Of a stretch of 64,000 nucleotides of DNA, positions 5,907 through 58,700 are shown one piece after another (position 1 is the first letter of the stretch; every line of letters begins with the position of its first letter). The translations under genes and the position numbers were made by a program. Source of the stretch: Bacteroidaceae bacterium (GTDB taxonomy: Bacteria > Bacteroidota > Bacteroidia > Bacteroidales > Bacteroidaceae); contig JAFSNB010000019.1 in assembly GCA_017447625.1 (NCBI GenBank), positions 1 through 64,000 of the forward strand, in the 5' to 3' direction. The notes below the pieces were generated by a model that searched no databases, was not told where the DNA came from, and saw nothing but the letters and a program-made list of their open reading frames with translations.

Positions 5907-6836
5907 TTATCCGCCGACCTTAGCCGTAAGCCCGTGGGCGGCGAACTGCTGAATGCAACGCTCCAGAGTTTCCTCTGTGGGCGCTGTCATTTTTATGCCT
6001 TCTGGGTTGAAGTCTGTACCACGACGGCGATGCTTGTCCTTGCCCACATCGTGGTAAGGGAGGAGGGAGAGGCCCCCCTGCCACCCGGTGGGGGGTTGAG
6101 AGTTGACAGATGAGAGATTAGAGATGAAAGATGCGGTCGCCTCTATGTTCTGCTCGTCTGCATTGACGCCTTCGATGAGAGGGATGCGGAACCAACAGCG
6201 GTCGGAGATGGATTTACCCTCGCGCTCCCACTTATCTGCCAACAGGCGGATATTACTCAGAATCGGTTCGTTCGGCACACCAGTGAAGCGGCGATGCAGG
6301 TCGGAATCCATGTGTTTCAGGTCGATAAGGAAGAGGTCGGTCTCGGCGTCTATGGCCTGCACCACCTCGGGCGAGGCATAAAGCGAGGTGTCAACCGTAC
6401 GGTGGAAGCCTCTGCGCCCCAATTCCTGCAATATCTGGAGCGCTTCCCGCGGGTGCATCAGGGGTTCGCCGCCACACAGGGTTACACCGCCGCCGCTTCC
6501 AGTCATTATCTCCCGCTCTTTCTCCACCTCAGCCATCAGCTCTTCCAAGGAATACTCGCGTCCGCAGACTTCGAGGGCGATGGTGGGACAAAGCTCAGCC
6601 ACCTCAAGATTCGTGGACTGAGCTTTTGTCCGGATATACTCCAGCTGGTGCGGATGTATGCCGCAGCTGTTGCAGCCGATGCATTTGTTCTGCTTGAACA
6701 TCAGCTCCGGCTGTGACTCCCAAGACTCGGGGTTATGGCACCAGACACAACGCAGAGGGCACCCTTTCATGAAAAGTGTGGTGCGGATGCCCGGTCCGTC
6801 ATTGATGGCGTAGCGCTTTATATCAAAGATAATCAT
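5907..6836 (-). CDS. Glycyl-radical-enzyme activating protein (radical SAM), probable HypD activase
   Basis: 309 residues. It should use S-adenosylmethionine and a [4Fe-4S] cluster to place the glycyl radical on the partner enzyme. MIIFDIKRYAINDGPGIRTT is the classic start of this family; a longer frame to 6923 would overlap the upstream gene and is rejected. The cluster motif is CPLRCVWC (CxxxCxxC) near residue 27. A short Cys-containing insertion (KCIGCNSC ... CPTIALEVC) stands where related activases carry ferredoxin-like clusters, but is reduced. The GGEPL motif of radical SAM proteins is present. Its partner is almost certainly hypD, three genes upstream in the same orientation. Between ASFI and LLPYHDVG it carries an in-frame insertion NLSSVNSQPPTGWQGGLS made by a repeat element (6057-6130). 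Confidence 0.9.
   Translation of the reverse strand: MIIFDIKRYAINDGPGIRTTLFMKGCPLRCVWCHNPESWESQPELMFKQNKCIGCNSCGIHPHQLEYIRTKAQSTNLEVAELCPTIALEVCGREYSLEELMAEVEKEREIMTGSGGGVTLCGGEPLMHPREALQILQELGRRGFHRTVDTSLYASPEVVQAIDAETDLFLIDLKHMDSDLHRRFTGVPNEPILSNIRLLADKWEREGKSISDRCWFRIPLIEGVNADEQNIEATASFISNLSSVNSQPPTGWQGGLSLLPYHDVGKDKHRRRGTDFNPEGIKMTAPTEETLERCIQQFAAHGLTAKVGG
6057..6130. repeat. GC palindrome plus GAGA-rich repeat, in frame inside the activase gene
   Basis: Contains CCCCCCTGCCACCCGGTGGG and then TTGAGAGTTGACAGATGAGA-type repeats like those of intergenic regions. It is read in frame as SNLSSVNSQPPTGWQGGLS just before the conserved LLPYH motif. Confidence 0.7.
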
Positions 6837-6853
6837 ATCGACGTTTTTGGAGA

Positions 6854-13211: not shown

Positions 13212-14050
13212 TTAGGCCGGTGGCACTCGTTTACTTTCTTGTGTTTACTGATTTGTTCGTCGGTCTCAGGGAAATATTCGGCCAGAAGGGCATAGAGGTC
13301 CGGATCGTAATCCTTCAGTTCCTCGCGGGTGTTGCACCAGTTGTGCTTGCCGTCGGCGTAAGGCATCTCGGCATTTACGTTGAACCAGTCCTGAACGGCC
13401 TCGGCGAAGTATTCCATGTGATCGGTTATGCGGTATGTGCCATCCAGTATGCCGCGAGCCTTCGCATTCTCGTATAATTGCTTGAGACGGCCGTCGAACT
13501 CCGGCTCTGCAATCATCAGACCGATGCAATGGATAGCGTGGGCAAACTCGTGAATGAGGATATCCTCAGCGTGATACTTGTCTATCTGATAAGCCAGCAC
13601 GTTCTCCTCAGCACATGAGGTCAGCGGCTCTTCAACAGTTCCGCCAAGACCGCGAGCACGGAGGTCCCAGTTGAGGGCTGTGTCGTTGACAAGATAATGG
13701 TGCTCGGGCAGGTCTGTGGTCCCTTCGTATCGGGCCATGATGGCAACACGTGCGTTAGCCTTTATCATCGCATCCAAGACCTCAGGCTTCAGCATACAGG
13801 TCATAACATACAGGGTGCGGTGGGCCGCCACGAACGCGGAATCAGGAACCCTCCAGGAAGAGACCAACGGTAGCCCGTTCACATCCACATACTTGACATA
13901 GAAAGAGTCAAGTCCGAGGGAATCGGGGACCGAGGTGACGATGCATTCCGGGAAAGAAGTCTCATCCCCACCCCCCTCCTTTGAGGGAGGGGTGTTGCAG
14001 GATGCGACCATAGTAAATATTCCGAGAATCGGTAAAAAATGTCTCTTCAT
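13208..14050 (-). CDS. Secreted HExxH metallopeptidase-like lipoprotein
   Basis: 280 residues with signal peptide MKRHFLPILGIFTMVASC, lipobox VASC. The mature domain carries DILIHEFAHAIHCIGL (HExxH zinc motif, about residue 167) and, about 50 residues on, MEYFAEAVQDWFNVN, where the Glu could be a third zinc ligand, as in gluzincin peptidases. A further conserved block, NTREELKDYDPDLYALL, is near the end. Substrate unknown; the context (upstream of aminopeptidase P, overlapping it by ATGA, and close to hypD and pruA) suggests action on proline-rich or collagen-derived peptides at the cell envelope. Right after the lipobox Cys lies NTPPSKEGGGDE, encoded by a GC palindrome (13967-13995). Confidence 0.72.
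   Translation of the reverse strand: MKRHFLPILGIFTMVASCNTPPSKEGGGDETSFPECIVTSVPDSLGLDSFYVKYVDVNGLPLVSSWRVPDSAFVAAHRTLYVMTCMLKPEVLDAMIKANARVAIMARYEGTTDLPEHHYLVNDTALNWDLRARGLGGTVEEPLTSCAEENVLAYQIDKYHAEDILIHEFAHAIHCIGLMIAEPEFDGRLKQLYENAKARGILDGTYRITDHMEYFAEAVQDWFNVNAEMPYADGKHNWCNTREELKDYDPDLYALLAEYFPETDEQISKHKKVNECHRPK
13967..13995. repeat. GC palindrome, A2 type, in the linker after a lipobox
   Basis: On the minus strand CACCCCTCCCTCAAAGGAGG followed by GGGGTGGGG; it resembles the intergenic copy at 29597-29631 (CTCCCTAAAGGGGAGGGGTC). It is read in frame as TPPSKEGGG. Confidence 0.65.
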
Positions 14051-14117
14051 AAATATATAGAACCCAGCGGTTTATAATCTAAGATTTAACATTAAACTTT
14101 AAACCTTAAACTTTAAA

Positions 14118-17244: not shown

Positions 17245-17442
17245 GTTTTAAATAGGACCCCCTCCTCACTCCCCCTGTAGGGGGAGGGTGAAATGAGAAC
17301 AAGAGGTGTTTGTTTTAGTGTTATAAAATATAATCCGTTAAATTCGTGTAATCCGTTGTTGATAATAATATTTTCGTTTTATTCGTCAAATTACTGCGTT
17401 TATTGTTAGCAGTCTGCCCAATTATGAATTATGAATTATGCA
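17245..17442. other. Intergenic with GC palindrome and ATTCATAATT repeats
   Basis: Holds a GC palindrome of the CTCCCCCTGTAGGGGGAGGG type (17258-17290) and, at 17420-17450, a run of AATTATGAATTATGAATTAT type that recurs at 19338, 33830 and 39670. No gene is seen. Confidence 0.6.
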
Positions 17443-19308
17443 TTATGAATTGATTTCAAGCCACCGCATCTCCTTCTCGTCCAGTTCATCGGTGAGTTGT
17501 GGCAGACGGCGGCTCTTTTCCGTCAGTTCTTCCACAGAGAGCGTACCGCTGCAAAGAGCGGTTTCCAAGGCTTTCTTCTCGGCCTCTAATGCGGCAATCT
17601 CGGCCTCTAAAGCCTCCAGCTCCTTCCGCTCCTTGAAAGAGAGGCGGCGAGGAGAAGAAGAAGAAGACCCACTCCCCGCTCTCCCATCAGGGAGAGAGCC
17701 TCGCTCCGCTCGATTGCTGCGCGATGATTTCCCGTCGGCTGCATCTGCTCGGCTGCTGCGCGCAGCCTTCTCCCCTCCCTGACGGGCAGGGCCGGGGTTG
17801 GGTCTGCTGGTACTTTGTCTATACTGCGTATAATTCCCGGGGAAGTCCTTCACTACCCCATCGCCCTGAAACACCAGCAGGTGATCTACCACCTTGTCCA
17901 TGAAGTAGCGGTCGTGGCTCACCACAATAACGCACCCACGGAATGTCCTGAGATAATCCTCGAGGATATTAAGCGTCACGATGTCGAGGTCGTTGGTCGG
18001 CTCGTCGAGAATGAGGAAATTAGGATTCTGCATCAGAACGGTGCAGAGATAGAGCCGCCGGCGTTCTCCACCCGACAGCTTGTATATGTAATTCTGCTGT
18101 TGCAGAGGTGAAAACAGGAAATGCTGCAGAAACTGCATCGCCGACAGCTGACGTCCGCCGCCCAAATCCACATATTCGGCTACGCGGCGCACGGCATCGA
18201 TGACCTTCATCTGATCGTCGAACTGCATCCCGTCCTGAGAGAAATAGCCAAAACGCACGGTCTCGCCGATAACGAAGCGTCCGCTGTCTGGCTTCACTTC
18301 GCCCAGCAGCATCTTCACGAACGTGCTCTTGCCTGTGCCGTTGGCTCCCACTATACCCATCTTCTCATAGCGCGAGAAATTATAGTAGAAGTCCTTCAGA
18401 ATCACCTTTGGCTCGCCGCCATCTTCTCTTGGCGGGAAGGTCTTGGACACATATTCGGCCTCGAATATCTTCGAGCCTATATATGCGGCGTTCAGCTGCA
18501 GGCTCACCGTCTTCTCTTCTGTCTGCTGATGAGCCTTAGCCTCCAGTTCGTAAAACGCATCCTTGCGGTAGTTGGCTTTGTGGCCGCGTGCCTGGGGCAT
18601 TCGCCGCATCCACTCGAGTTCGTACCTATATAAATTATTCGCGCGCGCGATTTCAGCGTTAGTGGCATCAATGCGCTCCTGACGCTTTTCCAGATAATAC
18701 TCGTAGTTTCCGCGATAGGTGTATAGGCGCTCGCCGTCCAACTCAAGAATCACAGAGCAGACGCGGTCCAGAAAATAACGGTCGTGCGTCACCATCAACA
18801 GCGTCATACAAGAGCGGCCCAGATAGGTCTCAAGCCACTCTATCATCTGCAGGTCGAGATGGTTCGTGGGCTCGTCCAGGATGAGCATGTCCAGCTCGCG
18901 GCACAACACATTGGCCAGAGCTACCCTCTTCAACTGTCCGCCGCTCAGTTCGCGCACAGGCTGCCCGTGGTCGCGGATGTCCAGTTTTGTCAGATATTCC
19001 TGAATACGGCGCGGCTCCTCGTCACATTGCCAGAGACAAGCCTCCATAACCGACATCTCAGGCGGATATTCAGGAATCTGCTCCAGATAAGCCACCTTCA
19101 GGTCGCGCCGCCATGTGATAGTGCCTTCGTCAGCCGCCTGTCTCCCCGCGATGATATTGAGCAGAGAGGTCTTCCCTTCGCCGTTCTTCGCAATAAGCCC
19201 CACGCGCTGTCCCTCTGCGATTCCAAACGAGAGGTCGCGGAACAAGGTCTTGTCACCGACGTGGTATGTGAGGCCTTCCACCTGCAAAAAGGGATTGACT
19301 GCTGCCAT
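17443..19308 (-). CDS. ABC-F ATPase (Uup/EttA-like), ribosome-associated
   Basis: 621 residues with two ABC ATPase domains and no membrane segment. Domain 1: GLIAKNGEGKTSLLN (Walker A), LSGGQLKRVALANVL, DEPTNHLD. Domain 2: GIVGANGTGKSTFVK, LSGGERRRLYL, DEPTNDLD. An ABC-F linker of charged helices lies between them. The C-terminal helical domain (FKERKELEALEAEIAALEAEK) is of the Uup type. Such proteins bind the ribosomal E site and modulate translation or resolve stalled complexes. Between domain 2 and the C-terminal coiled coil is a low-complexity stretch of about 60 residues rich in Arg, Ser and Gly, written by GC palindromes (17668-17805). Divergent from rho, with its own promoter. Confidence 0.9.
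   Translation of the reverse strand: MAAVNPFLQVEGLTYHVGDKTLFRDLSFGIAEGQRVGLIAKNGEGKTSLLNIIAGRQAADEGTITWRRDLKVAYLEQIPEYPPEMSVMEACLWQCDEEPRRIQEYLTKLDIRDHGQPVRELSGGQLKRVALANVLCRELDMLILDEPTNHLDLQMIEWLETYLGRSCMTLLMVTHDRYFLDRVCSVILELDGERLYTYRGNYEYYLEKRQERIDATNAEIARANNLYRYELEWMRRMPQARGHKANYRKDAFYELEAKAHQQTEEKTVSLQLNAAYIGSKIFEAEYVSKTFPPREDGGEPKVILKDFYYNFSRYEKMGIVGANGTGKSTFVKMLLGEVKPDSGRFVIGETVRFGYFSQDGMQFDDQMKVIDAVRRVAEYVDLGGGRQLSAMQFLQHFLFSPLQQQNYIYKLSGGERRRLYLCTVLMQNPNFLILDEPTNDLDIVTLNILEDYLRTFRGCVIVVSHDRYFMDKVVDHLLVFQGDGVVKDFPGNYTQYRQSTSRPNPGPARQGGEKAARSSRADAADGKSSRSNRAERGSLPDGRAGSGSSSSSPRRLSFKERKELEALEAEIAALEAEKKALETALCSGTLSVEELTEKSRRLPQLTDELDEKEMRWLEINS
17668..17805. repeat. GC palindromes inside the ABC-F gene
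   Basis: Two A2-type copies: one at about 17668-17700 (CTCTCCCATCAGGGAGAG core) and one at about 17768-17805 (CTCCCCTCCCTGACGGG core, the same as in metH at 45915-45951). They encode SLPDGRAGSG and NPGPARQGGEK in the interdomain linker. Confidence 0.7.
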
Positions 19309-19335: not shown

Positions 19336-19430
19336 CGATTAATTCATAATTCGTAATTCATAATTCTTAATTATTTCTCTTTTCTCATTAAAATTTTCCC
19401 AATAAATTTTTCCCTTTTAATAATTTGTCG

Positions 19431-19538: not shown

Positions 19539-21437
19539 ATGCACACAAAGGACGAGTTGGAAAGCCTTTCCATTGAACAATTGCGTGAAATCGCAAAGGC
19601 ACTCCATGTATCAGTAAAGTCAAATGCTGAGAAAATTGACATAATTTACGCTATTATAGACGAAGAGAGTCTTCATCCTCTGCCCGAAGTAAAACCCGCT
19701 CCCAAAAAGCGCGGACGCAAGAGCAAGGCTGAGAAGGAGGCTATGCTGGCTGCTCAGGCTGCTGCCGAGGCCGAAGATGCCAAGAAGACTGAAGAGGTTC
19801 AAAAAGTTCAAAAAGTTCAAGAGGTTCAAGAGGTTCAAGAAACCTCTGAAACTCCAGCCGCACCCGCTCCCAAAAAGCGCGGACGCAAGAGCAAAGCCGA
19901 GAAAGAGGCCGAGAAGGCTGCCCAGGCCCTGCTTTTCGAGGGTACAGAGCCAACAAATGACAAAGAGGTTCAAGAAGCTCAAGAGGTTCAAGAAGTTCAA
20001 GAGAGTTCTGACACCACCCTACCCCCATCAGCATCTCTCCCCCCCACGGGGGGAGCCGGAGAGGGGCTTGAGGAGCCTGAGGGTTCTGAGTTGCTCGACG
20101 CTGATGTCGAAGCATTCTTCCGCGCCAACGAGCCTGACTTCATAGTCACGATTCCAATACCGGACATTGAGGAAGATGCCATCGACGGACTCAACGACCC
20201 CGCCTCACACCGCCGGGAAGAGACCCCGCAGTTTATCCAGAACCTCTCGGCCGCTCAGCCGCAGGCACCTGCCCCACAGGCCAAGGCCGAAGAGCGCCAC
20301 GCCGCCACCCGCTACGATTTCGGTGACCTCATCAAAGCCGAGGGAGTGTTGGAAGTGGCCAACGAGGGCTTCGGCTACCTGCGTTCATCCGACTACAATT
20401 ATCTTGCCAGCCCCGACGACGTTTATGTATCGCAGCAGCAGATAAAACAATACGGTCTGAAGACAGGCGACGTGGTTGAAGGTGCCATACGTCCGCCGCG
20501 CGAGGGCGAGAAATACTATCCCATGCTCTCCGTAGAGCATGTGAACGGCGTTGACCCAGCCCGCATCCGCGACCGTCAGGCATTCGAGCACCTCACTCCC
20601 CTCTTCCCCGACGAGAAGTTCCGCCTCTGTCAGGGCTACAACGACAGCACCAGCGTGCGCGTCGTGGACCTCTTCTCACCCATCGGCAAGGGACAGCGCG
20701 CCCTCATCGTGGCTCAGCCCAAGACCGGTAAGACCATCCTGATGAAGGACATCGCCAACGCCATCGCAGCCAACCACCCCGAAGCATATCTGATGATGCT
20801 GCTCATCGACGAGCGCCCCGAGGAGGTGACAGACATGGCCCGTACCGTCAACGCTGAGGTAATCGCCTCCACCTTCGACGAGCCCGCCGAACGCCACGTG
20901 AAGATTGCCGGTATCGTGCTTGAGAAGGCAAAGCGTATGGTCGAGTGCGGTCACGACGTAGTCATCTTCCTCGACAGCATCACCCGTCTGGCACGCGCTT
21001 ACAACACCGTTGCACCCGCCAGTGGCAAGATCCTCTCCGGAGGTGTAGATGCCCAGGCTCTGCACAAGCCCAAGCGTTTCTTCGGTGCCGCACGTAACAT
21101 CGAGGGCGGCGGCTCTCTCACCATTATCGCCACAGCCCTCATCGACACCGGTTCAAAGATGGACGAGGTCATCTTCGAGGAATTCAAGGGAACTGGTAAC
21201 ATGGAGCTGCAGCTCGACCGCACTCTGGCCAACAAGCGCATCTTCCCTGCCGTGAACATAATCGCCAGCAGCACCCGCCGCGACGACCTGCTTCACGACA
21301 AGACTACTTTGGACCGTATGTGGATTCTCCGCAAGTACCTCTCCGACATGACTCCCATCGAAGCCATGAACGAGCTGAAGAGCCGCCTCGAAGGCACAAA
21401 GGACAACGAGGAATTCCTCATCAGCATGAACTCGTAA
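19539..21437 (+). CDS. rho: Transcription termination factor Rho with extended disordered region
   Basis: 632 residues against about 420 in E. coli. Residues 1-45 form the Rho N-terminal helical domain ([20 protein letters not shown]). A disordered region of about 230 residues follows: two [13 protein letters not shown] basic blocks resembling AT-hooks, EVQ tandem repeats encoded by a 9-base GTTCAAGAG repeat, and an in-frame GC palindrome ([10 protein letters not shown]). Then come the RNA-binding domain ([21 protein letters not shown]) and the RecA-like ATPase with Walker [15 protein letters not shown], the [11 protein letters not shown] segment and [11 protein letters not shown]. An inserted disordered region in Rho of Bacteroides has been linked to phase separation; the same may hold here. 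The start at 19539 is chosen over an upstream TTG (19425) that lies before the promoter. Confidence 0.95.
19797..20020 (+). repeat. GTTCAAGAG tandem repeats in rho
   Basis: Two blocks (19797-19840 and 19965-20003) of the 9-base unit GTTCAAGAG/GTTCAAAAA, in frame, encoding VQE/VQK repeats. They flank a near-duplicate of the segment encoding [16 protein letters not shown], itself duplicated at 19685-19740 and 19860-19915, so the whole region has grown by duplication. Confidence 0.8.
20032..20074 (+). repeat. A1 GC palindrome inside rho
   Basis: Core CTCCCCCCCACGGGGGGAG at 20037-20055 followed by CCGGAGAGGGG; read in frame as [10 protein letters not shown] within the disordered region. Confidence 0.8.
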
Positions 21438-24325: not shown

Positions 24326-24343
24326 TACTCAAATCGATATATA

Positions 24344-24430
24344 AATTTACTCAATTCTCCTTACGATTTTACTCAATTCTCCTTACAATTTTACTCAATT
24401 TGCGCTGCAAATTTACTCAATTTACTTCAA
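24344..24430 (-). repeat. 22-bp tandem repeats upstream of the AAA ATPase gene
   Basis: Three exact-period 22-bp units sharing TTTTACTCAATT, plus a partial fourth, back to back with no spacers. A related tandem pair with the same 22-base period occurs in opposite orientation at 26154-26198. Confidence 0.8.
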
Positions 24431-29535: not shown

Positions 29536-29631
29536 GCCCCCTACCCCTAAAGGGGAGTTTAGTTTAAGGGTTTAAGAAGTTTAAGGGTTTAAGTCTCACC
29601 TCCCTAAAGGGGAGGGGTCGGGGGAGAGGCT
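29536..29631. repeat. Intergenic GC palindromes flanking GTTTAAG repeats
   Basis: A GC palindrome CCCCTAAAGGGG (about 29544-29555) and an A2-type copy CTCCCTAAAGGGGAGGGGTC (29600-29619) flank three GGTTTAAG-type units. The second is the closest intergenic relative of the element in the metallopeptidase lipoprotein gene. Confidence 0.7.
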
Positions 29632-31723: not shown

Positions 31724-33829
31724 TTAACCTTTTCTCTTTTCTTTTTTCTCTTTTCTCTCCCCTTTTATCCCTCGCCGGGGGATTACAGGGGGCTTTATTC
31801 CGTTTCTCTCAAGCAGAGCATCTATGGTCGGCTCCTGGCCACGGAAGCGGCGGTAGAGGGTCATCGGGTGCTCTGTGCCGCCACGTGAGAGGATCTCATC
31901 GCGGAAGTGCTGGGCTGTGGCGCGGTCGAAAATGCCGTTCTGCTTGAACACGGAGAAGGCATCTGCATCCAGGACCTCAGCCCACTTATAACTGTAATAG
32001 CCGGCGGCATAACCGCCCGACATGATATGTCCGAACTGAACGCTCATGCATGTGCCTTCCACCTCGGAAAAGAGGCGTGCTCGACTCCACGCATCGCGCT
32101 CAAACTCTTGCACGTCGGCTGTAAACGGCTCGGTGATTGTGTAATAGGCCATATCCAGCAGGCAGAAGCTGACCTGACGGATGCAGGCGTATGCTACATT
32201 GTAGTTGCGGCTGGAGATAATGCGGTCGATGAGTTTCTGCGGGATGCGGCGCCCGTTCTTATAGTGTCGGGCAAAGGTGTTCAGGAACTCCGGCTCAATG
32301 GCATAGTTCTCCATTATCTGCGATGGCAGTTCCACGAAATCCCAATATACGCTCGTTCCGGAAAGGCCCGCAAAGCGCGTGTTTGCAAATATGCCGTGGA
32401 GCGCGTGCCCGAACTCGTGGAGGAAGGTCTCCACCTCGCCCAGAGTAAGCAGCGATGGCTTGGTCTCCGTGGGTTTCGTGAAGTTCATCGTCACGCTCAC
32501 GTGCGGCCGACTGTTGCCATCCTCCTCCGATATCCACTGGTCTTTGTAGCTTGTCATCCACGCTCCGCTCTGTTTGCCCTTGCGCGGGTGGAAGTCGGTG
32601 TAAAGGACAGCCAGGAAGGACCCGTCTCGGTCCAGAACGTCGTAGGCTGTCACATCGGGGTGATAGACCGGAATATCGGGATTCTCTTTGAAAGTGATGC
32701 CATAGAGTCGGGTTGCCAGACCGAACACACCCTCCTTCACTCGCGACAACTCCAGATAGGGGCGCAACATCTCGGCATCGATGTTGTAGCGTTCTTTCTT
32801 CAGCTTATGTGAATAATAGGCGAAGTCCCAAGGTTCCAGGACAAAGTCCTCGCCCTCGATGCTGCGCGCTTTCTGCTCTATCTCTGCCAGTTCCTGACGT
32901 GCAGGCTCAAGATAGGCATCGAGCAGGTCATTGATGAGTTTGTTCACATTATCGGCATTCTCAGCCATGCGATGAACGAGAACGTAGTCGGCGAAGTTCT
33001 TGTAGCCCAACATCTGAGCGCGTTCAAGCCGCAGATTGACCAGACGTCTGACAATATCAAAGTTGTTCTGCTCGTTGTCGTGCGTGCATATCGTGTTCTT
33101 CGCGATATACATCTGTTTGCGGAGGTCGCGGCGGTTAGAATAGGTGATAAACGGCCCGTAGGAAGGGGCGTGCAGAGTAAACAGCCACCCCTCTAACCCC
33201 GCTTCCTTGGCAGCCAGGGCGGCAGCCTCGCGTGCAGAGAGTGGCAAGCCGGTCAAGTCCGTTTTCTTTGTGAGATGCAGCTGAAAGGCGTTGGTCTCTT
33301 TCAGATTGTTCTGCGAGAATTGCAACGTGAGCAGAGTCATCTCGTTGTTTATCTCGCGCAGACGTGCCTGCTGCTCGTCGTTGAGTGCTGCGCCGCTGCG
33401 GATGAAACCGTCGTAGGCTTTCTGCAATAGCATCTGCTCTTCGGGCGTTAGTTCGCGGTCGGGGTTGTCGTGGACAGCCTTCACCCGCTCAAAGTAGCGA
33501 TGGTTGAATATTATGTTGTTGGCGTGTTCAGTCAGGATGGGCGACAGTTTCTGAGCCAAAGCGTCCATCTCGTCGTTGGTCTCGGCCGAGAGAAGATTGA
33601 AGAACACCTTGGTCACGCGTTCCAGCATATCGTCGGGAGCCGTAATACCTATTGTGTTGTCGAATGTAGGCGGCTCTGGGTTGTTTACGATGCTGTCAAT
33701 GAAGGCCTCGTCCTGACGGATACCCTCCATAACGGCTGGTTCGTAATGTTCCAGACGGATGGCATCAAACGGCGCGGTTTCGTGCGGCGTGGGGTAATGC
33801 TTTGTGAAGAAGGGATTTATTGAATTCAT
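31724..33829 (-). CDS. M3-family metallopeptidase (dipeptidyl carboxypeptidase/oligopeptidase)
   Basis: 701 residues, cytoplasmic M3 peptidase of the Dcp type. Zinc site FLHEFGHALHGIFAN (HExxH) near the middle-to-late part, followed by the Glu in WDFVELPSQIMENYA; substrate-binding tail region FGHIMSGGYAAGYYSYKWAEVLDADAF. Degrades short peptides to dipeptides. The family usually ends shortly after LLERNGI; here the frame runs on through PPVIPRRGIKG and a Lys/Glu tail, encoded by an A3 GC palindrome (31769-31793) and a TTTCTC-rich tract. So the native C-terminus has been replaced or extended by repeat DNA. Confidence 0.93.
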   Translation of the reverse strand: MNSINPFFTKHYPTPHETAPFDAIRLEHYEPAVMEGIRQDEAFIDSIVNNPEPPTFDNTIGITAPDDMLERVTKVFFNLLSAETNDEMDALAQKLSPILTEHANNIIFNHRYFERVKAVHDNPDRELTPEEQMLLQKAYDGFIRSGAALNDEQQARLREINNEMTLLTLQFSQNNLKETNAFQLHLTKKTDLTGLPLSAREAAALAAKEAGLEGWLFTLHAPSYGPFITYSNRRDLRKQMYIAKNTICTHDNEQNNFDIVRRLVNLRLERAQMLGYKNFADYVLVHRMAENADNVNKLINDLLDAYLEPARQELAEIEQKARSIEGEDFVLEPWDFAYYSHKLKKERYNIDAEMLRPYLELSRVKEGVFGLATRLYGITFKENPDIPVYHPDVTAYDVLDRDGSFLAVLYTDFHPRKGKQSGAWMTSYKDQWISEEDGNSRPHVSVTMNFTKPTETKPSLLTLGEVETFLHEFGHALHGIFANTRFAGLSGTSVYWDFVELPSQIMENYAIEPEFLNTFARHYKNGRRIPQKLIDRIISSRNYNVAYACIRQVSFCLLDMAYYTITEPFTADVQEFERDAWSRARLFSEVEGTCMSVQFGHIMSGGYAAGYYSYKWAEVLDADAFSVFKQNGIFDRATAQHFRDEILSRGGTEHPMTLYRRFRGQEPTIDALLERNGIKPPVIPRRGIKGERKEKKEKRKG
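31769..31793 (+). repeat. GC palindrome, A3 type, at the 3' end of the M3 peptidase gene
   Basis: CCCTCGCCGGGGGATTACAG then GGGGC; nearly identical to the intergenic copy at 42445-42470 (CCCCCACCGGGGGATTATAG). It encodes the C-terminal PPVIPRRG segment of the peptidase. Confidence 0.75.
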
Positions 33830-33838
33830 AATTCTTAA

Positions 33839-33893
33839 TTCATAATTATTCGACTTTGCTCATCAATACGTCATAATTAGGCTGCGCGAAGCA
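33839..33893 (+). repeat. 55-bp inverted repeat, left arm
   Basis: The reverse complement of 39624-39678 with a single mismatch. It begins TTCATAATTATTCGACTTTG and ends GGCTGCGCGAAGCA. It lies in the gap between the M3 peptidase and Crp genes. Confidence 0.9.
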
Positions 33894-39576: not shown

Positions 39577-39625
39577 AAAAATGTATAATGTATTATGTAG
39601 AATGTAAAATGTAAAATGTAAAATG
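39577..39625. repeat. AATGTAAA tandem repeats upstream of glnN
   Basis: Degenerate 7-base units (AATGTAT, AATGTAAA, AATGTAAA) in tandem directly upstream of glnN, abutting the 55-bp inverted repeat arm. Confidence 0.7.
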
Positions 39626-39678
39626 CTGCGCGCAGCCTAATTATGACGTATTGATGAGCAAAGTCGAATAATTATGAA
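39624..39678 (-). repeat. 55-bp inverted repeat, right arm
   Basis: Matches 33839-33893 in inverted orientation, 54 of 55 positions. It lies between glnN and mltG. Confidence 0.9.
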
Positions 39679-39692
39679 TTATGAATTACGAA

Positions 39693-42444: not shown

Positions 42445-42470
42445 CCCCCACCGGGGGATTATAGGGGGCC
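42445..42470 (+). repeat. GC palindrome, A3 type, in the trpB2 leader
   Basis: CCCCCACCGGGGGATTATAG then GGGGCC; the close relative of the copy forming the end of the M3 peptidase gene. It lies between the attenuator terminator and trpB2. Confidence 0.7.
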
Positions 42471-42471
42471 T

Positions 42472-43885: not shown

Positions 43886-46768
43886 TTGGACCTTTCTGAA
43901 CTCATAAGGCAACGTGTTCTGCGTTTAGACGGTGCGCTCGGCACCATGATCCAGAGCTACGGCCTGCGCGAAGATGACTTCCGCGGCCAGCGTTTCCGCG
44001 ACTTGCCCGGCCAGATGGCAGGAAACAACGACCTGCTAAGTCTGACACGCCCCGATATCATCCGTGACATTCATCGCCGTTATCTGGAAGCCGGCGCAGA
44101 CATTATTGAGACAAACACTTTCTCAGCCCAGCGCATCTCAATGGCTGACTACCATTGTGAACCGTTCTGCCGCGAGATAAACCTTGCCGCTGCTGCCATC
44201 GCCAGAGAACTTGCCGACGAATATACAGAAAGGAATCCCGAGAAGCCCCGTTTCGTGGCCGGTTCGGTAGGACCCACCAACAAGGCTCTGTCCATGAGTC
44301 CGGACGTGAGTGACCCCGCTCTTCGCGCCATCACCTTCGACGACCTTGCCGATGCCTATACGGAGCAGATGACTGCACTTATCGAGGGCGGTGTGGATGC
44401 ACTTCTCATAGAGACCATATTCGACACGCTCAACGCCAAAGCCGCGCTCTATGCCGCCGAAGAGGCGATGCAAGTCGCTGGCCACCGCGTGCCAATAATG
44501 TTGTCCGTAACTGTGGCGGACAAGACCTACCGCACACTCTCCGGACAGACCTTACAGGCATTTCTGGCCTCAGTAAGCCACGCAAACATCTTGAGCGTTG
44601 GCCTGAACTGCTCGTTCGGAGCCGCTGAGATGCTCGCTCCCCTGCGACAGCTCGCCGCCGAAGCGCCCTATTTTATCAGCGTCTATCCCAATGCCGGTCT
44701 GCCAAACCAGCTGGGGTTATATGACGACACGCCCGAGACGATGCGCCGCGACATGCGGGCATTCACCCGCGAAGGGCTCGTGAATATCATAGGCGGTTGC
44801 TGCGGCACAACCGACGCTCACATAGCCGCCTTCGAACCACTCACACGCGAAGCGGCCCCTCATCAGCCCGCACAGCCCTCGTCAGACCTGTGGCTCAGCG
44901 GACTGGAAAGACTCGAGATCGGATCAACTACCCTCCCCCCCACGGGGGGAGTTGGAGAGGGGCCTTCTTTCCCCCCCACGGGGGGAGCCGAAGAGGGGCT
45001 TACTATAATTGGTGAACGCTGCAACGTGGCCGGTTCGCGCAAGTTCCTACGCCTCATCAAAGAGAAAAACTACGACGAAGCCCTCGCCATAGCACGCAAG
45101 CAAATCGACGATGGCGCTCGCATAATAGACATCAACATGGACGACGGCCTGCTCGATGCCCGCGAGGAAATGACGCATTTCCTCAACCTGCTGGCCTCCG
45201 AGCCGGAGATTGCCCGCGTGCCGGTTATGATTGACAGTTCCAATTGGGAGGTAATCCGAGCCGCGCTGCGTTGCATCCAGGGTAAGGGCATCGTGAACAG
45301 TATATCGCTGAAAGAGGGCGAAGAGGTATTCCTCAGCCACGCCCGCGAGATTCGCCGCCTCGGAGCCGCCGTTGTGGTTATGGCGTTTGACGAAGAAGGG
45401 CAGGCCACGACCTTCGAACGGCGCACAGCCATCTGCGCCCGCGCCTACAGTCTGCTGACGAAGGTTGTAGGTATGCCGCCGTCTGACATTATCTTCGACC
45501 CGAACATACTGGCCATCGCCACCGGCATAGAAGAGCACAACGCATACGCCGCCGATTTCATCCGCTCTACCGCTTGGATTCGCGAGAACCTGCCAGGCTC
45601 CCATGTAAGCGGCGGAGTCAGCAACCTGTCCTTCGCCTTCCGTGGCAACAACTGGCTGCGCGAAGCGATGCACGCCGTGTTCCTTTATCACGCGAACCGG
45701 GCCGGAATGGATATGGGTATCGTGAATCCCGCAAGCGCACTGGCTTACTCAGATATTCCCGCCGACAGCCTCAAAATCATAGAGGATGCCATCCTCAACC
45801 GCACTCCAGATGCAACTGAGCAGCTTATGCAGCTGACAGCGCCCACCCTCAACTCTCAACCCTCAAATCTCAACTCTTCTCTCCCCCCCACGGGGGGAGC
45901 CGGAGAGGGGCCAGCTCCCCTCCCTGACGGGAGGGGTTTGGGGGTGGGTCTCCTCCACGCTATCCGCACGGGCGACACAAGCACTCTCGAAGCCGACCTC
46001 GCAGAGGCGCTCACGCAGTATGCCAGTCCGCTCGAAATAATCGAGGGACCGTTGATGGACGGAATGCGGCAGGTTGGTACGCTCTTCGGCGAGGGAAAGA
46101 TGTTCCTGCCACAAGTGGTAAAGGCAGCCCGTACGATGAAACGCGCGGTGGAAATTCTTCAGCCACACATTAATAATATTAATAAGGAGAGAACTGTCTA
46201 CTCTAAACAGTCAACTGTCAACGTCCTCAAGCCCAAGGTTCTGCTCGCCACCGTAAAGGGCGATGTACACGACATCGGAAAGAATATCGTCAGCGTCATC
46301 ATGGCCTGCAACGGATACGAGGTCATAGATCTCGGCGTAATGGTTCCCGCAGAGACTATCGTGCAGAGAGCCATCGAGGAGCAGCCGGACGTAATCGGTC
46401 TTTCGGGTCTAATCACCCCCTCGCTCGAAGAGATGGTGCGAGTGGTGGCAGCCCTGCGTGAAGCCGACATCAGCGTTCCTGTCCTTATCGGCGGAGCCAC
46501 CACATCGCCGCTACACACGGCCTTGCGCATCGCTCCTGTCTATGGCGGCCCCGTAATCCATGTTCGCGACGCAAGTCAGAATGTGCCAGTTGCCGCTCGC
46601 TTCATTGACCCCTCCACATCCGACGAGGCCTTCACCTCTCTCAAGGCCGAGCAAGAGGCTATGCGCCATCAGGCAGACACCGCCTCCCCCGAAATAGTTC
46701 CAATCGAGGAGGCCAGACGCAGAAAGACTGAGTTTGCGGCCCAACGTAATAACGATATAACGGTATAA
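43886..46768 (+). CDS. metH: Cobalamin-dependent methionine synthase without reactivation domain
   Basis: 960 residues. Transfers methyl from 5-methyl-THF to homocysteine. Modules: homocysteine domain (1-325; zinc Cys in GLNCSFGAAEM and GGCCGTT), pterin domain (about 372-650; IGERCNVAGSRKFLRL), cobalamin cap and Rossmann domain (about 690-940; GDVHDIGKNIV carries the DxHxxG cobalt ligand). The C-terminal S-adenosylmethionine activation domain of E. coli MetH (1,227 residues) is absent; the frame ends RRRKTEFAAQRNNDITV in TAACG repeats. The start is a TTG at 43886, since the family begins right there (LIRQRVLRLDGALGTMIQ) and no ATG is available. Repeat insertions lie at all three domain junctions (about 345-370, 655-690, 762-777). 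Confidence 0.94.
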   Translation: MDLSELIRQRVLRLDGALGTMIQSYGLREDDFRGQRFRDLPGQMAGNNDLLSLTRPDIIRDIHRRYLEAGADIIETNTFSAQRISMADYHCEPFCREINLAAAAIARELADEYTERNPEKPRFVAGSVGPTNKALSMSPDVSDPALRAITFDDLADAYTEQMTALIEGGVDALLIETIFDTLNAKAALYAAEEAMQVAGHRVPIMLSVTVADKTYRTLSGQTLQAFLASVSHANILSVGLNCSFGAAEMLAPLRQLAAEAPYFISVYPNAGLPNQLGLYDDTPETMRRDMRAFTREGLVNIIGGCCGTTDAHIAAFEPLTREAAPHQPAQPSSDLWLSGLERLEIGSTTLPPTGGVGEGPSFPPTGGAEEGLTIIGERCNVAGSRKFLRLIKEKNYDEALAIARKQIDDGARIIDINMDDGLLDAREEMTHFLNLLASEPEIARVPVMIDSSNWEVIRAALRCIQGKGIVNSISLKEGEEVFLSHAREIRRLGAAVVVMAFDEEGQATTFERRTAICARAYSLLTKVVGMPPSDIIFDPNILAIATGIEEHNAYAADFIRSTAWIRENLPGSHVSGGVSNLSFAFRGNNWLREAMHAVFLYHANRAGMDMGIVNPASALAYSDIPADSLKIIEDAILNRTPDATEQLMQLTAPTLNSQPSNLNSSLPPTGGAGEGPAPLPDGRGLGVGLLHAIRTGDTSTLEADLAEALTQYASPLEIIEGPLMDGMRQVGTLFGEGKMFLPQVVKAARTMKRAVEILQPHINNINKERTVYSKQSTVNVLKPKVLLATVKGDVHDIGKNIVSVIMACNGYEVIDLGVMVPAETIVQRAIEEQPDVIGLSGLITPSLEEMVRVVAALREADISVPVLIGGATTSPLHTALRIAPVYGGPVIHVRDASQNVPVAARFIDPSTSDEAFTSLKAEQEAMRHQADTASPEIVPIEEARRRKTEFAAQRNNDITV
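44929..45000 (+). repeat. Two tandem A1 GC palindromes inside metH (first junction)
   Basis: Two copies about 38 bases apart, cores CCCCCCCACGGGGGGAG; they encode LPPTGGVGEG and FPPTGGAEEG between the homocysteine and pterin domains. Confidence 0.85.
45847..45951 (+). repeat. Composite repeat inside metH (second junction)
   Basis: AACTCTCAACCCTCAAATCT-type repeats (45847-45877), an A1 palindrome (45878-45913) and an A2 palindrome (CTCCCTGACGGGAGGGG, 45919-45935, then TTTGGGGGTGGG). Read as [13 protein letters not shown] and PLPDGRGLGVG between the pterin and cobalamin-cap domains. Confidence 0.8.
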
Positions 46769-47318: not shown

Positions 47319-49350
47319 GCACGGCGAGAACTGTTACTCCAACATCTGCGAACACAGCCATCCACATCGTGGCCACTCCGAAGGCTGCGAGGATGAGTAC
47401 AGCCACCTTCACGCCGATGGCAAACACTACGTTCTGACGTGCAATGGCTATGGTGCGACGAGCGATGCTGATTGCTGTGGCTATTTTTGTCGGTTTGTCG
47501 TCCATCAGCACCACATCGGCGGCCTCGATTGCTGCGTCCGAGCCCAGCCCACCCATAGCGATTCCCACATCTGCACGCGCCAGCACGGGAGCGTCGTTTA
47601 TGCCGTCGCCGACGAAAGCCATAGAGGGACTCTCCCCCCGCCCTCCCTGTGAGGGAGGGAGCGAAATCTTGTCTAAGATTGCTACTTTGTCGGCAGGGAG
47701 GAGTTCTGCATGGAATTCGTCGATGCCTAGTTCTGCGGCCACTCGCTCTGCCACTTCCTGACGGTCACCCGTGAGCATAACCGTTTTCTTCACGCCTAAC
47801 GACTTCAGCGCGCGAACGGCCTCTGCGCTGTCCTCCTTCACCGTGTCGTTAATCACGATATGTCCGGCGTATTCGCCGTCGATGGCAACATGGATTACGG
47901 TGCCGTGATCTTCGTGTCCGCACTCCGTGAGCTGTGCCCCCACACTTTCCATCATCTTTCTGTTGCCCACGCAAACCACCACTTTTTTCTCTTCTTCTCT
48001 TTTCTCATTACTCTCTTTAATCCCCACCACCGCCTTGATACCATGACCCGCAATCTCCTCAATATCGGAGATTGAGCAACCGTCTGTGGCCTCGTCGGGA
48101 TAAGCGTTGCGCAGGGCAGCGCCTATTGGGTGCGTGGAGAAATGTTCTACATGAGCAGCCAGATGCAATAGATGATGAGCGTCGTAGCGGCTGGGGTGAA
48201 CGGCAGTCACGGCAAACTGTCCGTGGGTCAGCGTCCCGGTCTTGTCGAACACCACGGTGCCAATCTTCGCCAGCACATCCATATAATTGGCCCCCTTGAC
48301 CAGTATGCCTCTGCGCGAGGCTCCGCCTATGCCGCCGAAAAACGTCAACGGCACCGATATCACAAGCGCACACGGACACGAGACAACGAGGAATATCAAA
48401 GCGCGGTGAATCCAAATGGGCCATTGACCATTGAACATTGAACATTGACCATTGAACATTAACCACAACGGGGGCAGGATGGCAAGGGCGATGGCGGCAA
48501 ACACCACAATCGGAGTATAGACGCGGGCGAAGCGGGTGATGAACGTCTCGCTCTGCGACTTGTGTTCTGAGGCGTTTTCTACCAGACTGATTATCTTTGC
48601 CACAGTGCTTTCGCCGAACGCCTTAGTCGTTCGCACACGTAGCACACCGGACAGGTTCACGCAGCCGGAAATAACCTCGTCCTCAACGGCCACCTCGCGC
48701 GGCAGACTCTCACCCGTAAGCGCCATAGTGTTCAAGCTCGAGGCTCCCTCGATTACCACACCGTCCAACGGCACGCGCTCGCCCGGACGGATTACGATGG
48801 TCTCCCCCACCCCGACGCTCTCAGGACTAACGCTCTCTACGTTACCTCCGCGCTCCACATTGGCCACGTCGGGACGTATATTCATCAGATGGGCTATGCT
48901 GTCGCGGCTCTTCCCCTCGGCATAGCCCTCGAAGAGTTCTCCGATCTGGAAGAAAAGCATTACAAACACAGCCTCGGGGAACTCCGTTTCTGCCCCTGGC
49001 ATAAAGCCGATGGCTAGTGCGCCCAGCGTGGCCACCGACATCAGAAAATGTTCGTTGAAGGCATCTCCGCCGGCAATTCCCTCGGCCGCCTCTTTCAGAG
49101 TCTCGTGACCTATTAGGAGATAAGGCACCAAATACACCAGCAGCAGTTGCCATGTGGCCAGTTCATACTGATGTTCTATCCAGACAGCAACTGCAAGCAG
49201 CACAGCCGTAACTGCAATCAGCGCCACCTGCCCCTTCAGTCCCCCATGCTCGTGGTGGGGCTCGTGGTGGGGCTCGTGGTGATGCTCATGATGGTGCTCA
49301 TGTTTATGCTCTTTTGAGCAACATTCATGTTCGTGATGATGATGTGACAT
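47290..49350 (-). CDS. Metal-transporting P1B-type ATPase with His-rich N-terminus
   Basis: 686 residues, inner-membrane efflux ATPase of the Zn/Cd/Pb type. The N-terminus is a histidine-rich metal-binding tail (MSHHHHEHECCSKEHKHEHH and onward) in place of a CxxC HMA domain. Landmarks: LTGESLPREV, SCPCAL (CPC motif, about 325-327), FDKTGTLTHGQ (phosphorylated Asp about 369), STHPIGAAL and VGDGINDAPVLARADVGIAMG. Two repeat insertions: LWLMFNGQCSMFNGQWPI before the CPC helix (CATTGAAC repeats, 48418-48466), and SLPPSQGGRGESPS before GDGIND (GC palindrome, 47628-47671). A longer start (49578) is rejected because the promoter lies at 49376-49384. Confidence 0.92.
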   Translation of the reverse strand: MSHHHHEHECCSKEHKHEHHHEHHHEPHHEPHHEHGGLKGQVALIAVTAVLLAVAVWIEHQYELATWQLLLVYLVPYLLIGHETLKEAAEGIAGGDAFNEHFLMSVATLGALAIGFMPGAETEFPEAVFVMLFFQIGELFEGYAEGKSRDSIAHLMNIRPDVANVERGGNVESVSPESVGVGETIVIRPGERVPLDGVVIEGASSLNTMALTGESLPREVAVEDEVISGCVNLSGVLRVRTTKAFGESTVAKIISLVENASEHKSQSETFITRFARVYTPIVVFAAIALAILPPLWLMFNGQCSMFNGQWPIWIHRALIFLVVSCPCALVISVPLTFFGGIGGASRRGILVKGANYMDVLAKIGTVVFDKTGTLTHGQFAVTAVHPSRYDAHHLLHLAAHVEHFSTHPIGAALRNAYPDEATDGCSISDIEEIAGHGIKAVVGIKESNEKREEEKKVVVCVGNRKMMESVGAQLTECGHEDHGTVIHVAIDGEYAGHIVINDTVKEDSAEAVRALKSLGVKKTVMLTGDRQEVAERVAAELGIDEFHAELLPADKVAILDKISLPPSQGGRGESPSMAFVGDGINDAPVLARADVGIAMGGLGSDAAIEAADVVLMDDKPTKIATAISIARRTIAIARQNVVFAIGVKVAVLILAAFGVATMWMAVFADVGVTVLAVLNAMRALRA
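47628..47671. repeat. GC palindrome inside the P-type ATPase gene
   Basis: CTCCCCCCGCCCTCCCTGTG followed by AGGGAGGGAG; in frame as LPPSQGGRGES directly before the conserved VGDGIND motif. Confidence 0.7.
48418..48466. repeat. CATTGAAC repeats inside the P-type ATPase gene
   Basis: Five or so 8- to 9-base units CATTGAMC in tandem, in frame as FNGQCSMFNGQW just before the transmembrane helix that bears the CPC motif. The same repeats occur at 3749-3772 (intergenic) and 55879-55921 (giant gene). Confidence 0.8.
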
Positions 49351-55707: not shown

Positions 55708-55754
55708 AAGCTTTATGGTTAATTGACAAAGGATTTATCCAGAAAAGTGCAAAA

Positions 55755-58700
55755 TTAGTTGTGGTCAACTGTCACCTTTCTGCTTCTTACCACGACCTTC
55801 TGGCCATTGAAGATATAGACGCCGGGGTGAGTGGGTCGGGCGGTGCCGAGGGAGATGCCCTGGAGGGTGTACCATTGGTCTTTGGTCATTGAACCTTGGC
55901 CATTGACCATTGAACCTTGTCCTCCGTCTATTGTCTTTATGCCGTTGGCAGCGGCGAGATCAATGACGAAGGGTTCCCACGGGGTGCCGATGTTGCCGTC
56001 GCTGCTGTAGGTGAGGGTGTCACATACGGTGACGGCTGCAGCGCCGCCGACAGAGACTCGGAGTTCCATAGGCTGACCACTACCCTCGCCTGCAATAAGC
56101 AGATAATAGAGGTCGTCGGTTACGGTGGCAGCTCCCCGGCATTCGTCTCCGACATAAGCCGCGATCTCGGCGTTCAGCACAGCCTCTCCGCCGTTCGTCA
56201 GCATTATCACCATAGACATATTGTCGGGATAGGTAGTGGGATCCACGGGCGAGAAGTACAAGGGCCCCTCTCCGACTCCCCCCGTGGGGAGGAGAGAGCC
56301 TGACCATTGACTGTCTTGACCCTTTTCTCCCTTGACCTCGCGGCCGGAGCCGGTGGTGAGAGTCGGATAGACGAACTCCTTGATCTTCTTCTCCAGACTG
56401 TGGTAGAGGTAGCCCTTGCCGTTCTCCAAGGCCTTGAGGTTGCCCTCCCAGCCGTAGGGACCGTAGTAAGCAAAGCCCTTCTGCGACTTCACCTGGTCAC
56501 CGATCTGCGGGTCGGCTCCCGCCAGAGCCTGGTCAAGAGTCATCGTCGTTGTGGGCAGATAGGCAATCCAGTTCCATCCGTCATGGAGGACAACAGGAGT
56601 CTCATAGAGTTTCACCTGCTCACCAGATACGGGCAGCTGTGCCGGCAGTTCCTTGCTCTCCGGGAGTCGGCTCAGAAGCATCTTGTACATGGTGTTAGAG
56701 TGTACGTTCTTGAGAACGCCGGCCCAATAGGTTCCGTTGCAGTAGGAGGAGCCTGTGTGCTGATCCTTCACGCGGACGTTCCACGAGGAGAGGTCCTTGA
56801 AGACGGCAGAGGTCTTCGTGTTAGCAGGCTCGACGGCCAGCGAGAGCCAGTTCCAGCCCGTCTTGACGGTAAGTCTCTGCTCTACATGGTTGCTCTTGGC
56901 GAAGATTACCGGGTGGTCGAAATCGCCGTAGCTCTCCACGGGGTCGAAGTACAGCTGCGAGCTGGGCAGAGAGAGCGGGGATTCGCCCTGAGTATTATTG
57001 AGGCTTACAATCACGTTGGTGTAAGCAACGCCGGTGGTGGCATCCCAGATGCGGAAGGTCAGGGGCTGGCCCTTGTCCAGATCGCGCATCACGCCGTTCA
57101 CCTCTTGCTGAGCGTTGCCATAGACGCTCATTGCCACGTATGCGGCGCCGCGAATCTGCTCCAGATGGGCTATACCGCGGCACTCGTCGCCAATGAAGGC
57201 AGCCAGGCAGCTCTCGCTGTTGCCCATCAGGATGCCGTTGACATAGACCTGGCCTACGATGCTCATCGTGTTCTCGTACTTGCTCGGGTCGAAAGCCCAG
57301 GTCGGAGCCTCGCCGCTCACCTTCATGACGATGCGCAGGGGTTCGAGAATCTCGTTGTTGCCCTGCAGACCGATGGTCACGTCGTAGTTGCCGACGGCCA
57401 CGAGCGGATTCACGCTGAAGCGCAGGGTCTTGGTCGTGAGCGGAGCTACGTCGTCCGAGCGCTCGCTATCTACGAGAGTCAGCCATTGCGGCATATTATA
57501 TAATGTATAGTACTCTGTGTTACCGCTGCGGTTCTCGATGTTCACGTCGAAGGTGTAGGCGTCGCCGTACTGTTTGATTACGTTCACGGAGTCCTTGGTC
57601 CATTTCAGGGTGTTCAACTGCACGTAGGAAGTCCAGCGTATCGGAGCCGACGGGTTGCCGTTCTTGTCGTAGATTTTATCCACGGTGATGTTGAGCGTTG
57701 TGCCCTCAATGTCGCGGGCTTCCACTCCACCGCCCTCTTCGATCCGGATTACCAGCTTGCGCTCAGAGGCCACGGGCTTGGCTATGATGCGGCTCTCCAC
57801 GGGGGCATTCTTCAGCGGGGCTTGTGTGGATATGAAAGTGTTCTCGCTGACAGCCCCTGCGAGCACATCGGCTGCACCCGTGCTGGCGGCGGTGCGCGGT
57901 GCCATATTCTCCAGCGTCGGAACCATGGTGGAAACGCCGTTGACTGTACCGGGCTTCTCAAACGGATAGTAGGCCACGAGTCCGCGTGAGTAGGCGTCTG
58001 CGGTGTCTATTGTGTTGTACATGTTCGACAGCAGACGGTCCTCGGAGAGCGTAGCCTTCCAGATGCGGATTTCATCGATGAAGCCGTCGAGGCCCTGTCC
58101 GATTAGCATCTTCGAACCTTCAAATGGCGGCACCTCACTCTCGGCGATAACAGCCGTGCGCTTCCCGTTGTAGTAGAAGCTGGCCGACTGGCCGCGCACC
58201 ACATTCAGGGCGAAGTGGTTCATTCCATAATGGTTAGCGAAGTCTTCGTAACTGGCCACCGTCTGACTCTGCTCGCCGTATTCAAGCACGATGTCCTTGT
58301 TTGCTTTGTAATACAAACGCAGGCGGTTCGAAGGTTTGCTGCCCGTCTCGAAGATGGTCTCTCCTCCCGTTATAGTCAGATTGGACATTGCCCACAGTTC
58401 TATGGCATAGCTGTCGCCGCGACTGGTGTTGATGCGTGAGATGTCGGCTTCTACGGTTTCGCCTTTGGTATGCAGGCAATAGTTCGTATTCTCCAGTTCC
58501 CACGAGTCTTCGAGTGTGATGTCGTGCGTGTGGCGTGTGTCTGCAACCAAGTCGCCGTGTCCCTCGTTCATAGGCCAGTAGTTCGTCAGACCATAGACAT
58601 AATTGTCCTTTGTCTCGTACTTCGCAGCAGCGGCATCCTTGACGTCGCGATAGACCTTGTAAAGGCTCAGGTCGTGGATGCGGGCTGAGATGGGTCCGAG

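Follow-up and report, generated by a model that had tools for sequence, protein, structure and literature searches.

GC-rich palindromes lying in frame in Bacteroidaceae genes are probably ends and short derivatives of mobile elements that encode a DUF559 nuclease

Rickettsia palindromic elements (RPEs) are repeated palindromic elements of 105–146 bp, found in frame in genes for conserved proteins as well as between genes, according to passages of two papers (PMC2229807, PMC3767692). In-gene repeats of this type were described in 2000, as cited in a 2007 review, which in the passages available treats the movement of such small repeats as a question for future work (PMC2229807). REPtrons, built from repetitive extragenic palindromic (REP) sequences, comprise hairpin repeats, single or inverted, in several families per genome, each with an enzyme gene between matching repeats, whereas repeats ending in CGTC are said in the same excerpt to lack a dedicated transposase (PMC3733652). 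EDxHD homing endonucleases, represented by I-Bth0305I, have active sites like those of type II restriction enzymes (passages of PMC3943268), and an excerpt of PMC9403480 already places a DUF559 gene in the EDxHD family, under the inteins of Thermosynechococcus. Here we describe GC-rich palindromes in a 64-kb stretch of DNA from a Bacteroidaceae bacterium (positions 1 to 64,000 of contig JAFSNB010000019.1; hereafter the window). They combine the behaviour of RPEs, the architecture of REPtrons and an enzyme of the homing endonuclease kind, and we did not find them to fit the full definition of any of these. It is probable that the palindromes are the ends, and for the most part short non-autonomous derivatives, of nuclease-encoding mobile elements that are tolerated in frame.

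A likeness to RPEs is seen in an element in the gene hypD, which is about 105 nt long, in frame and matched by an empty site in relatives; it has the RPE size (about 100–150 bp, in frame), and many other copies are single ends of ~35 nt. The RPE of R. conorii ends in CGTC (excerpt of PMC3733652), whereas the ends described here, compared by description, do not carry CGTC. A second difference is that, here, the same ends enclose a nuclease gene matched to their family, while the passages on RPEs available to us name no enzyme. Like REPs and REPINs (REP doublets forming hairpins) with their REP-associated tyrosine transposases (RAYTs), our palindromes occur as single hairpins and inverted pairs, in several families, with an enzyme gene between matching ends. 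This enzyme is, however, an EDxHD/Vsr-like endonuclease and not a Y1 transposase, and the GTAG tag is absent. REPs are also mostly intergenic, to go by the excerpt of PMC3733652, but 32 of 51 cores of our best-studied family, A1, fall within long coding frames. The nuclease domain is homologous to that of EDxHD homing endonucleases (I-Bth0305I; intein-linked DUF559); unlike them, it is associated here with inverted GC hairpins, many gene-less short copies and many sites, and we noticed no intron or intein. The sharing of inverted ends between gene-less short copies and a larger gene-bearing unit recalls miniature inverted-repeat transposable elements and insertion sequences, but the units contain no transposase and we saw no target-site duplication. 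In the literature searched, with coverage that stops short of bioRxiv preprints and most subscription journals, we found no description of DUF559 with palindromic ends.

The window belongs to an assembly of 2.56 Mb that is 73% complete (G000), which we compared with 101 assemblies of the same genus. An earlier note, made from the window sequence alone, had listed 19 GC palindromes in three families, and all 19 were present at the places given. Its family A1 stood, while its A2 and A3 each turned out to mix several families (A2, A2b, A2c and A3b), and six copies (starting at 3803, 6057, 13967, 17258, 17668 and 29536) matched none of the six end families searched. Two listed copies in hypD (9810–9843 and 9880–9917) are not separate but form the two inverted ends of one element, and 6057–6130 is a GC palindrome together with a 7-bp array (6097–6133). 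An A1 end consists of a core, TCCCCCCCACGGGGGGAG, and a tail, for example CCGGAGAGGGGC; end sequences from DUF559 loci and family patterns include GCCCCTCTC.., GACYCWCCCCC.. and GCCTCWCCCC... Allowing up to three mismatches, the window has 12 matches to the A1 core; 100 dinucleotide shuffles averaged 0.04 and never reached 12. Five of these matches are opposite-strand readings of the same palindromes, leaving seven distinct cores. The G000 assembly holds 50 exact A1 copies and 36 with one or two mismatches, and the reversed, non-complemented control sequence had no copy there. A1 was found with at most one mismatch in 23 of the 101 same-genus assemblies (1 to 77 copies each), so the copies are not an artefact of a single assembly, an alternative that the earlier note had raised. 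For A2b, the pattern search gave 45 copies in G000 and matches in 36 of the 101 genomes. As single-stranded DNA, the full hypD element folds with a z-score of −6; most of eight single ends form hairpins, but their z-scores are ordinary (−2.1 to +0.4), since shuffled strings this rich in GC fold as well.

Copies within coding DNA had been described as always in frame. Translations of eight host genes pass through the window copies without a stop. For a wider test, a codon-usage model was applied to 277 kb of G000 DNA selected around copies, using all 51 A1 core matches, with neighbours merged into 42 clusters and none dropped. The best coding frame was equal on both flanks in 29 clusters. Both flanks were clearly coding in 20, and 19 of these agreed in strand and frame, the 20th lying between two genes on opposite strands. 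The frame is therefore kept at 19 of the 19 sites where both flanks clearly code on one strand, an outcome with a probability of ~1e-9 under random framing. Among the 32 A1 cores in long frames (at least 80 open codons in each flank), 22 are read as LPPTGG(A/V)GEG, five as SPRGGE and five otherwise; all five SPRGGE cores are one partner of an inverted pair. Host genes identified by Pfam include those for a phenylalanyl-tRNA synthetase beta chain, valyl-tRNA synthetase and a Clp-type AAA protein, with chorismate synthase, shikimate dehydrogenase, asparagine synthase and a pyridine-nucleotide-disulphide oxidoreductase as further hosts, in addition to HypD, MetH, Rho, ABC-F, M3 peptidase and P-type ATPase in the window. 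Several copies do lie in linkers, as had been proposed, but others sit within conserved domains (the HAD P-domain of the ATPase, the catalytic domain of ValS and the PFL-like domain of HypD). Given these sites and the dominance of one reading frame, the claim of selection only for frame and linker location was too strong.

Relatives provide empty sites for two hosts. We sought hypD in 20 genus genomes, obtained a match in 17 and aligned 12 real orthologues (~90% identity) with that of G000. Ten of the 12 have an empty site, with 429 nt between anchors, whereas G042 carries the same element as G000, with 525 nt between anchors (a net gain of 96 nt). The remaining orthologue, from G059, has 21 additional nt that retain GGAAATG, as in the element spacer, and is likely to hold a remnant. 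Mapped onto 6VXC, a relative of solved structure, the insertion point is between chain residues 608 and 616. In metH, the first insert is missing in eight of eight aligned relatives, and also in 11 relatives among the alignment rows listed. The second is missing in the closest relative found, that of G059 (80% identity), whose linker has a similar length, so this insert may have replaced an older linker. We therefore reject the reading of these segments as ancestral linkers, which the earlier note had named as a case that would refute its view; its comparison with RPE behaviour (dispersed, moved and tolerated in frame) is borne out by the frame test and the empty sites. Some metH matches contain in-frame TGA codons (one in G036, locus L150; two in G024, locus L152; one in G001), reflecting either sequencing error or real disruption.

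A1 copies often form inverted pairs with their tails outward, mostly with 41–53 nt between cores. Across 28 such pairs in G000 and relatives (a count that omits a match at L188 pairing with itself), the core distance is 2 modulo 3 in 24. Two wider pairs, 416 and 424 nt apart in G076 and G096, enclose a small open reading frame (ORF) that belongs to DUF559 (PF04480). In the G000 assembly there are exactly three DUF559 genes, each enclosed by inverted palindromes of a different family (A1 on contig C21, A2 on C23 and A3-like on C27), and each of these families recurs elsewhere in the genome. On C21 the DUF559 frame is fused to ispG, giving a protein of 540 amino acids (GcpE at 13–384, DUF559 at 434–539). 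For the A1-ended units in G076, G096 and G015, the flanking DNA is homologous between units or to G000 (the ispG–cysS junction). The palindromes had thus been rightly taken for dispersed mobile elements, but their role as the ends of DUF559 units had been missed.

DUF559 is present in at least 68 of the 101 genus genomes. We examined 92 genus loci among the places listed, mostly the best-scoring, and three more fetched for their A1 ends (L117, L170 and L183), scoring inverted ends against 1000 random control stretches drawn partly from element-bearing G000 DNA. Inverted ends at or above the 99th control percentile were found at 94 of the 95 loci (91 of 92 without the three fetched for A1), and 61 exceeded the best of the 1000 controls. 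The sole miss, L301, is near a contig end, which falls 58 bases past the DUF559 match. Phylum-wide, 21 of 29 loci passed this test and three exceeded the control maximum. Among 12 plasmid loci, fetched from 35 records with a DUF559 match, five were above the control maximum (Sphingomonas, two Deinococcus, Pseudanabaena and Azospirillum lipoferum) and one, from Picosynechococcus, was above the 95th percentile. Nine of the 21 end-bearing phylum loci, versus three of the 94 in the genus, have at least 60 open codons in each flank. Outside the genus, other Bacteroidota carry entire DUF559 units in frame within leuS (L248), metH (L237 and L242), hsdM- and hsdR-like genes (L234, L227 and L229) and DNA methylase-like genes (L222, L223 and L225), all of these identities resting on a reading of the translations. 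Palindrome-encoded linkers were observed beside most DUF559 domains inside housekeeping or restriction-modification proteins of other Bacteroidota. At L226, where DUF559 lies inside leuS, inverted ends were not detected.

The ends follow the protein. Over 96 elements, protein similarity and end similarity were correlated (Mantel r = 0.485, reached in 0 of 5000 permutations). Of 99 close DUF559 protein pairs, 53 lie in non-homologous flanks and 46 in homologous ones; the mean end similarity of the 53 was 0.663, compared with 0.226 over all 6555 pairs, and none of 10000 random draws equalled it. The clearest moved pair consists of two units in G093 (L273 and L313), ~4.6 kb apart, which are 89% identical over 489 nt and unrelated outside, with limits of identity that coincide with the inverted ends to within one base. 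In nine moved pairs checked, homology never extended more than two bases beyond an end. Copies are also more numerous where a matching nuclease was found: the median number of A2b copies was 39.5 in the eight genomes with a cognate-ended DUF559 versus 0 in the 93 others, and for A1 it was 17 in four genomes versus 0 in 97 (Mann-Whitney p ~1e-5 for each family).

A DUF559 profile searched against the PDB gave 3HRL, an endonuclease-like protein (6.5e-30), then 3R3P, annotated as a ‘mobile intron protein’ (4.6e-8), with two PvuRts1I chains next (0.012). A single-sequence search also gave 3R3P (0.0038), which we take to be I-Bth0305I. The columns of D75, E86, D88 and H92 are retained in at least 120 of 124 aligned DUF559 sequences. 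Judged by its sequence, the DUF559 family is homologous to the EDxHD homing endonuclease, with conserved acidic and histidine residues. L220, which has an internal stop, was omitted from the 23-row protein alignment. The ratio of non-synonymous to synonymous substitution rates (dN/dS) had a median of 0.062 and a maximum of 0.44 over 24 pairs, and DUF559 is under purifying selection. In Caulobacter lacking a cytosine methylase, the SOS response needs the DUF559 protein VsrA (passages of PMC12907096), which suggests that a DUF559 protein can damage DNA in vivo. Phage and RNA connections were considered and rejected: the hypD DNA had no near match in the phage collection, a single DUF559 query in a search for close relatives had none in viral contigs, and Rfam at gathering scores gave only a tRNA in the window. 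The ispG-DUF559 frame contained no intein domain.

We propose the following model. A complete element of ~0.5 kb consists of a DUF559 gene, encoding an EDxHD/Vsr-like endonuclease of ~120 amino acids, flanked by two ends in inverted orientation; an end comprises a GC-rich tail and then a GC-rich hairpin, and different nuclease lineages carry different ends (A1, A2, A2b, A2c, A3-like and others). The nuclease, as its family suggests, would cut DNA in trans, and repair by the cell would copy the element, or any short copy with cognate ends, into the break. The matching of ends to proteins suggests that the hairpins may be the recognised parts, the annealing parts or both. The ends can be read through in most frames and specify short stretches rich in Gly and Pro, so that copies landing in frame in protein loops would be tolerated, translated and inherited; out-of-frame copies would persist only between genes. 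Preservation of the frame would then need only selection on the host, helped by these open ends.

Several observations weigh against this model. DUF559 as the mobility enzyme, the break-and-copy route, action in trans and the survival of the insert into the mature protein are steps that we infer. Neither the alignment of hypD nor the sequences flanking six units showed a target-site duplication, although these sites are too diverged for certainty, and we saw no target consensus. Clear inverted ends were lacking at eight of the 29 phylum-wide loci, and six of the 12 plasmid loci fell below the 95th percentile (Sinorhizobium, Methylobacterium, Azospirillum brasilense, Photobacterium, Shinella and Synechocystis). 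The correlation of ends with proteins takes account of species phylogeny only through the flank test, the 46 close pairs with shared flanks look vertically inherited, and in seven of the nine moved pairs the detectable homology stops short of reaching both ends. At least 10 A2b copies occur in nine of the 93 genomes with no cognate DUF559 among the loci examined (75 in G039, 45 in G000), as do at least 10 A1 copies in four of 97 (27 in G087, 26 in G042); conversely, G097 has a locus scored as A2b-ended yet not a single A2b copy at one mismatch. These exceptions may stem from loss of the parent element, incomplete assemblies or unexamined DUF559 genes. Finally, single A1 ends with tandem half-units suggest that slippage makes copies too.

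The strongest competing explanation takes DUF559 for a conventional selfish or defence nuclease and the hairpins for terminators or hot-spots, with the palindromes spread by slippage and recombination. We consider it unlikely. Tandem half-units do adjoin A1 copies: at L124, L125, L126, L127 and L131 we observed a tandem left half, (TCTCCCCCCCACGGGT)n, and/or right half, (CCGGAGAGGGGC)n, which suggests slippage or template switching at the hairpin. The close pairs with shared flanks and the copies without a cognate nuclease among the examined loci also fit this explanation. It does not account for ends that are inverted, two-sided and matched by family to the protein, or for the limits of homology of the moved unit in the clearest pair. 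The hypD element, with two ends and a spacer facing an empty site, is not a product of slippage, and terminators would not preserve the frame in genes. In a separate observation, two A1 ends in valS of G000 (L126:4678–4820) and in L184 (G015) flank a similar segment that looks host-coding; in some cases, then, an inverted pair may represent two insertions with host DNA between them.

Much less probable is a set of REP or REPIN-type repeats mobilised by a RAYT, a Y1 tyrosine transposase, with DUF559 as a passenger. The inverted hairpin pairs, with their spacing, have a REPIN-like architecture, and REPs within genes are known (excerpt of PMC3733652). A search of G000 and eight A1-bearing relatives nevertheless led us to judge a Y1/RAYT transposase unlikely as the enzyme: no Y1_Tnp match was found in G000 (at its 73% completeness), and Y1 was absent from four of the eight relatives, including G096 and G015 (94% and 92% complete). 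Besides three weak partial matches, the relatives had two strong Y1 genes (G087 and G093), with neither A1 nor A2b in the surrounding loci, one of the two genes being flanked by its own clear inverted ends. Neither GTAG nor CGTC is present in the palindromic ends that we saw, and it is DUF559 that lies inside them at nearly all genus loci examined. Least probable of all is that the copies inside genes serve as linkers kept by selection on their peptide, or that they are taken out again as introns or inteins or skipped as bypassed segments: one peptide frame dominates and several copies lie in linkers, but the segments are absent from hypD relatives of ~90% identity and from the closest metH, Rfam at gathering scores offers no candidate in the window, inserts of only ~12–35 codons are far shorter than group I or II introns and inteins, and the frame and lack of stops are kept, which removal from RNA does not require.

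Table 1 Palindromic ends, elements and 7-bp arrays in the window.
Feature	Position	Strand	Remarks
Full short non-autonomous A1 element in hypD	9809..9917	gene on −	two inverted A1 ends, in frame
A1 cores of the hypD element	9823-9840; 9882-9899	−; +	41 nt between cores
A1 end in rho, N-terminal variable region	20035..20068	+	Pfam Rho_RNA_bind only from residue 306
Two tandem A1 ends in metH, directly before pterin-binding domain	44930..45000	+	TTLPPTGGVGEGPSFPPTGGAEEGL
A1 end then inverted A2 end in metH, linker before B12-binding domain	45878..45951	+	
7-bp array preceding the metH A1/A2 pair	45848-45877		
A2b end in P-type ATPase gene, within HAD P-domain	47628..47665	+ (gene on −)	directly before FVGDGIND
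A1 end in 2746-aa ORF	56262..56297	−	LLPTGGVGEGPL
A2 end in ABC-F gene	17767..17805	−	before C-terminal domain (from residue 554)
GC palindrome in ABC-F gene	17668..17700		outside searched family patterns
GC palindrome and 7-bp array in HypD activase gene	6057..6133		near C-terminus; array 6097-6133
GC palindrome in putative lipoprotein gene	13967..13995		directly after N-terminal Cys; outside searched families
A3b end in M3 peptidase gene, extreme C-terminus	31769..31793	−	Peptidase_M3 match stops at residue 676
Intergenic A2c end	29597..29631	−	near-identical ends at DUF559 loci L208, L221, L265 (G015, G041, G003)
Intergenic A3b end	42445..42470	−	
Intergenic GC palindrome	3803..3850		outside searched families
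Intergenic GC palindrome	17258..17290		outside searched families
Intergenic GC palindrome	29536..29559		outside searched families
Period-7 arrays	3747-3771, 4052-4088, 6097-6133, 14088-14119, 17420-17451, 19340-19372, 39578-39625, 45848-45877, 48421-48465		

The putative lipoprotein in Table 1 had no Pfam match. The window also contains arrays with a period of 7 bp (CATTGAA, AATTATG, TGAGAGA and others), which are mostly intergenic, with some in frame in genes (the P-type ATPase array at 48421-48465, which reads MFNGQCSMFNGQ, metH at 45848 and the HypD activase at 6097). Some of them adjoin GC palindromes, and the arrays seem to be another type of tolerated insertion. An inverted repeat of 71 nt (33823-33893 and 39624-39694, 5.7 kb apart) is 96% complementary and includes 7-bp units, and tandem arrays of 22 bp (TTTACTCAATTCTCCTTACAAT and a reverse-complement relative, at 24325-24422 and 26147-26207) bracket ~1.7 kb.

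A repeat of the RPE kind is now paired with a family-matched gene, encoding a relative of homing endonucleases instead of a transposase. On balance, and with less assurance than for the origin of the palindromes, we favour a distinct class of bacterial element, in which a DUF559/EDxHD endonuclease gene between inverted GC hairpins spreads itself and short copies without a transposase and enters genes in frame, at least in Bacteroidota, with Deinococcota, Cyanobacteriota and Alphaproteobacteria as probable further carriers. If so, housekeeping proteins carry a Gly/Pro-rich loop or, as in LeuS, MetH and HsdR-like proteins of other Bacteroidota, a whole nuclease domain, and by analogy a type of enzyme can be proposed for RPE-like in-gene palindromes generally. 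The question of how such repeats move becomes testable, since it comes down to one small protein, one pair of ends and one empty target. The model would account for both recurrent ‘linker’ peptides and DUF559 domains fused into annotated proteins, and would offer a route by which essential proteins gain loops and domains.

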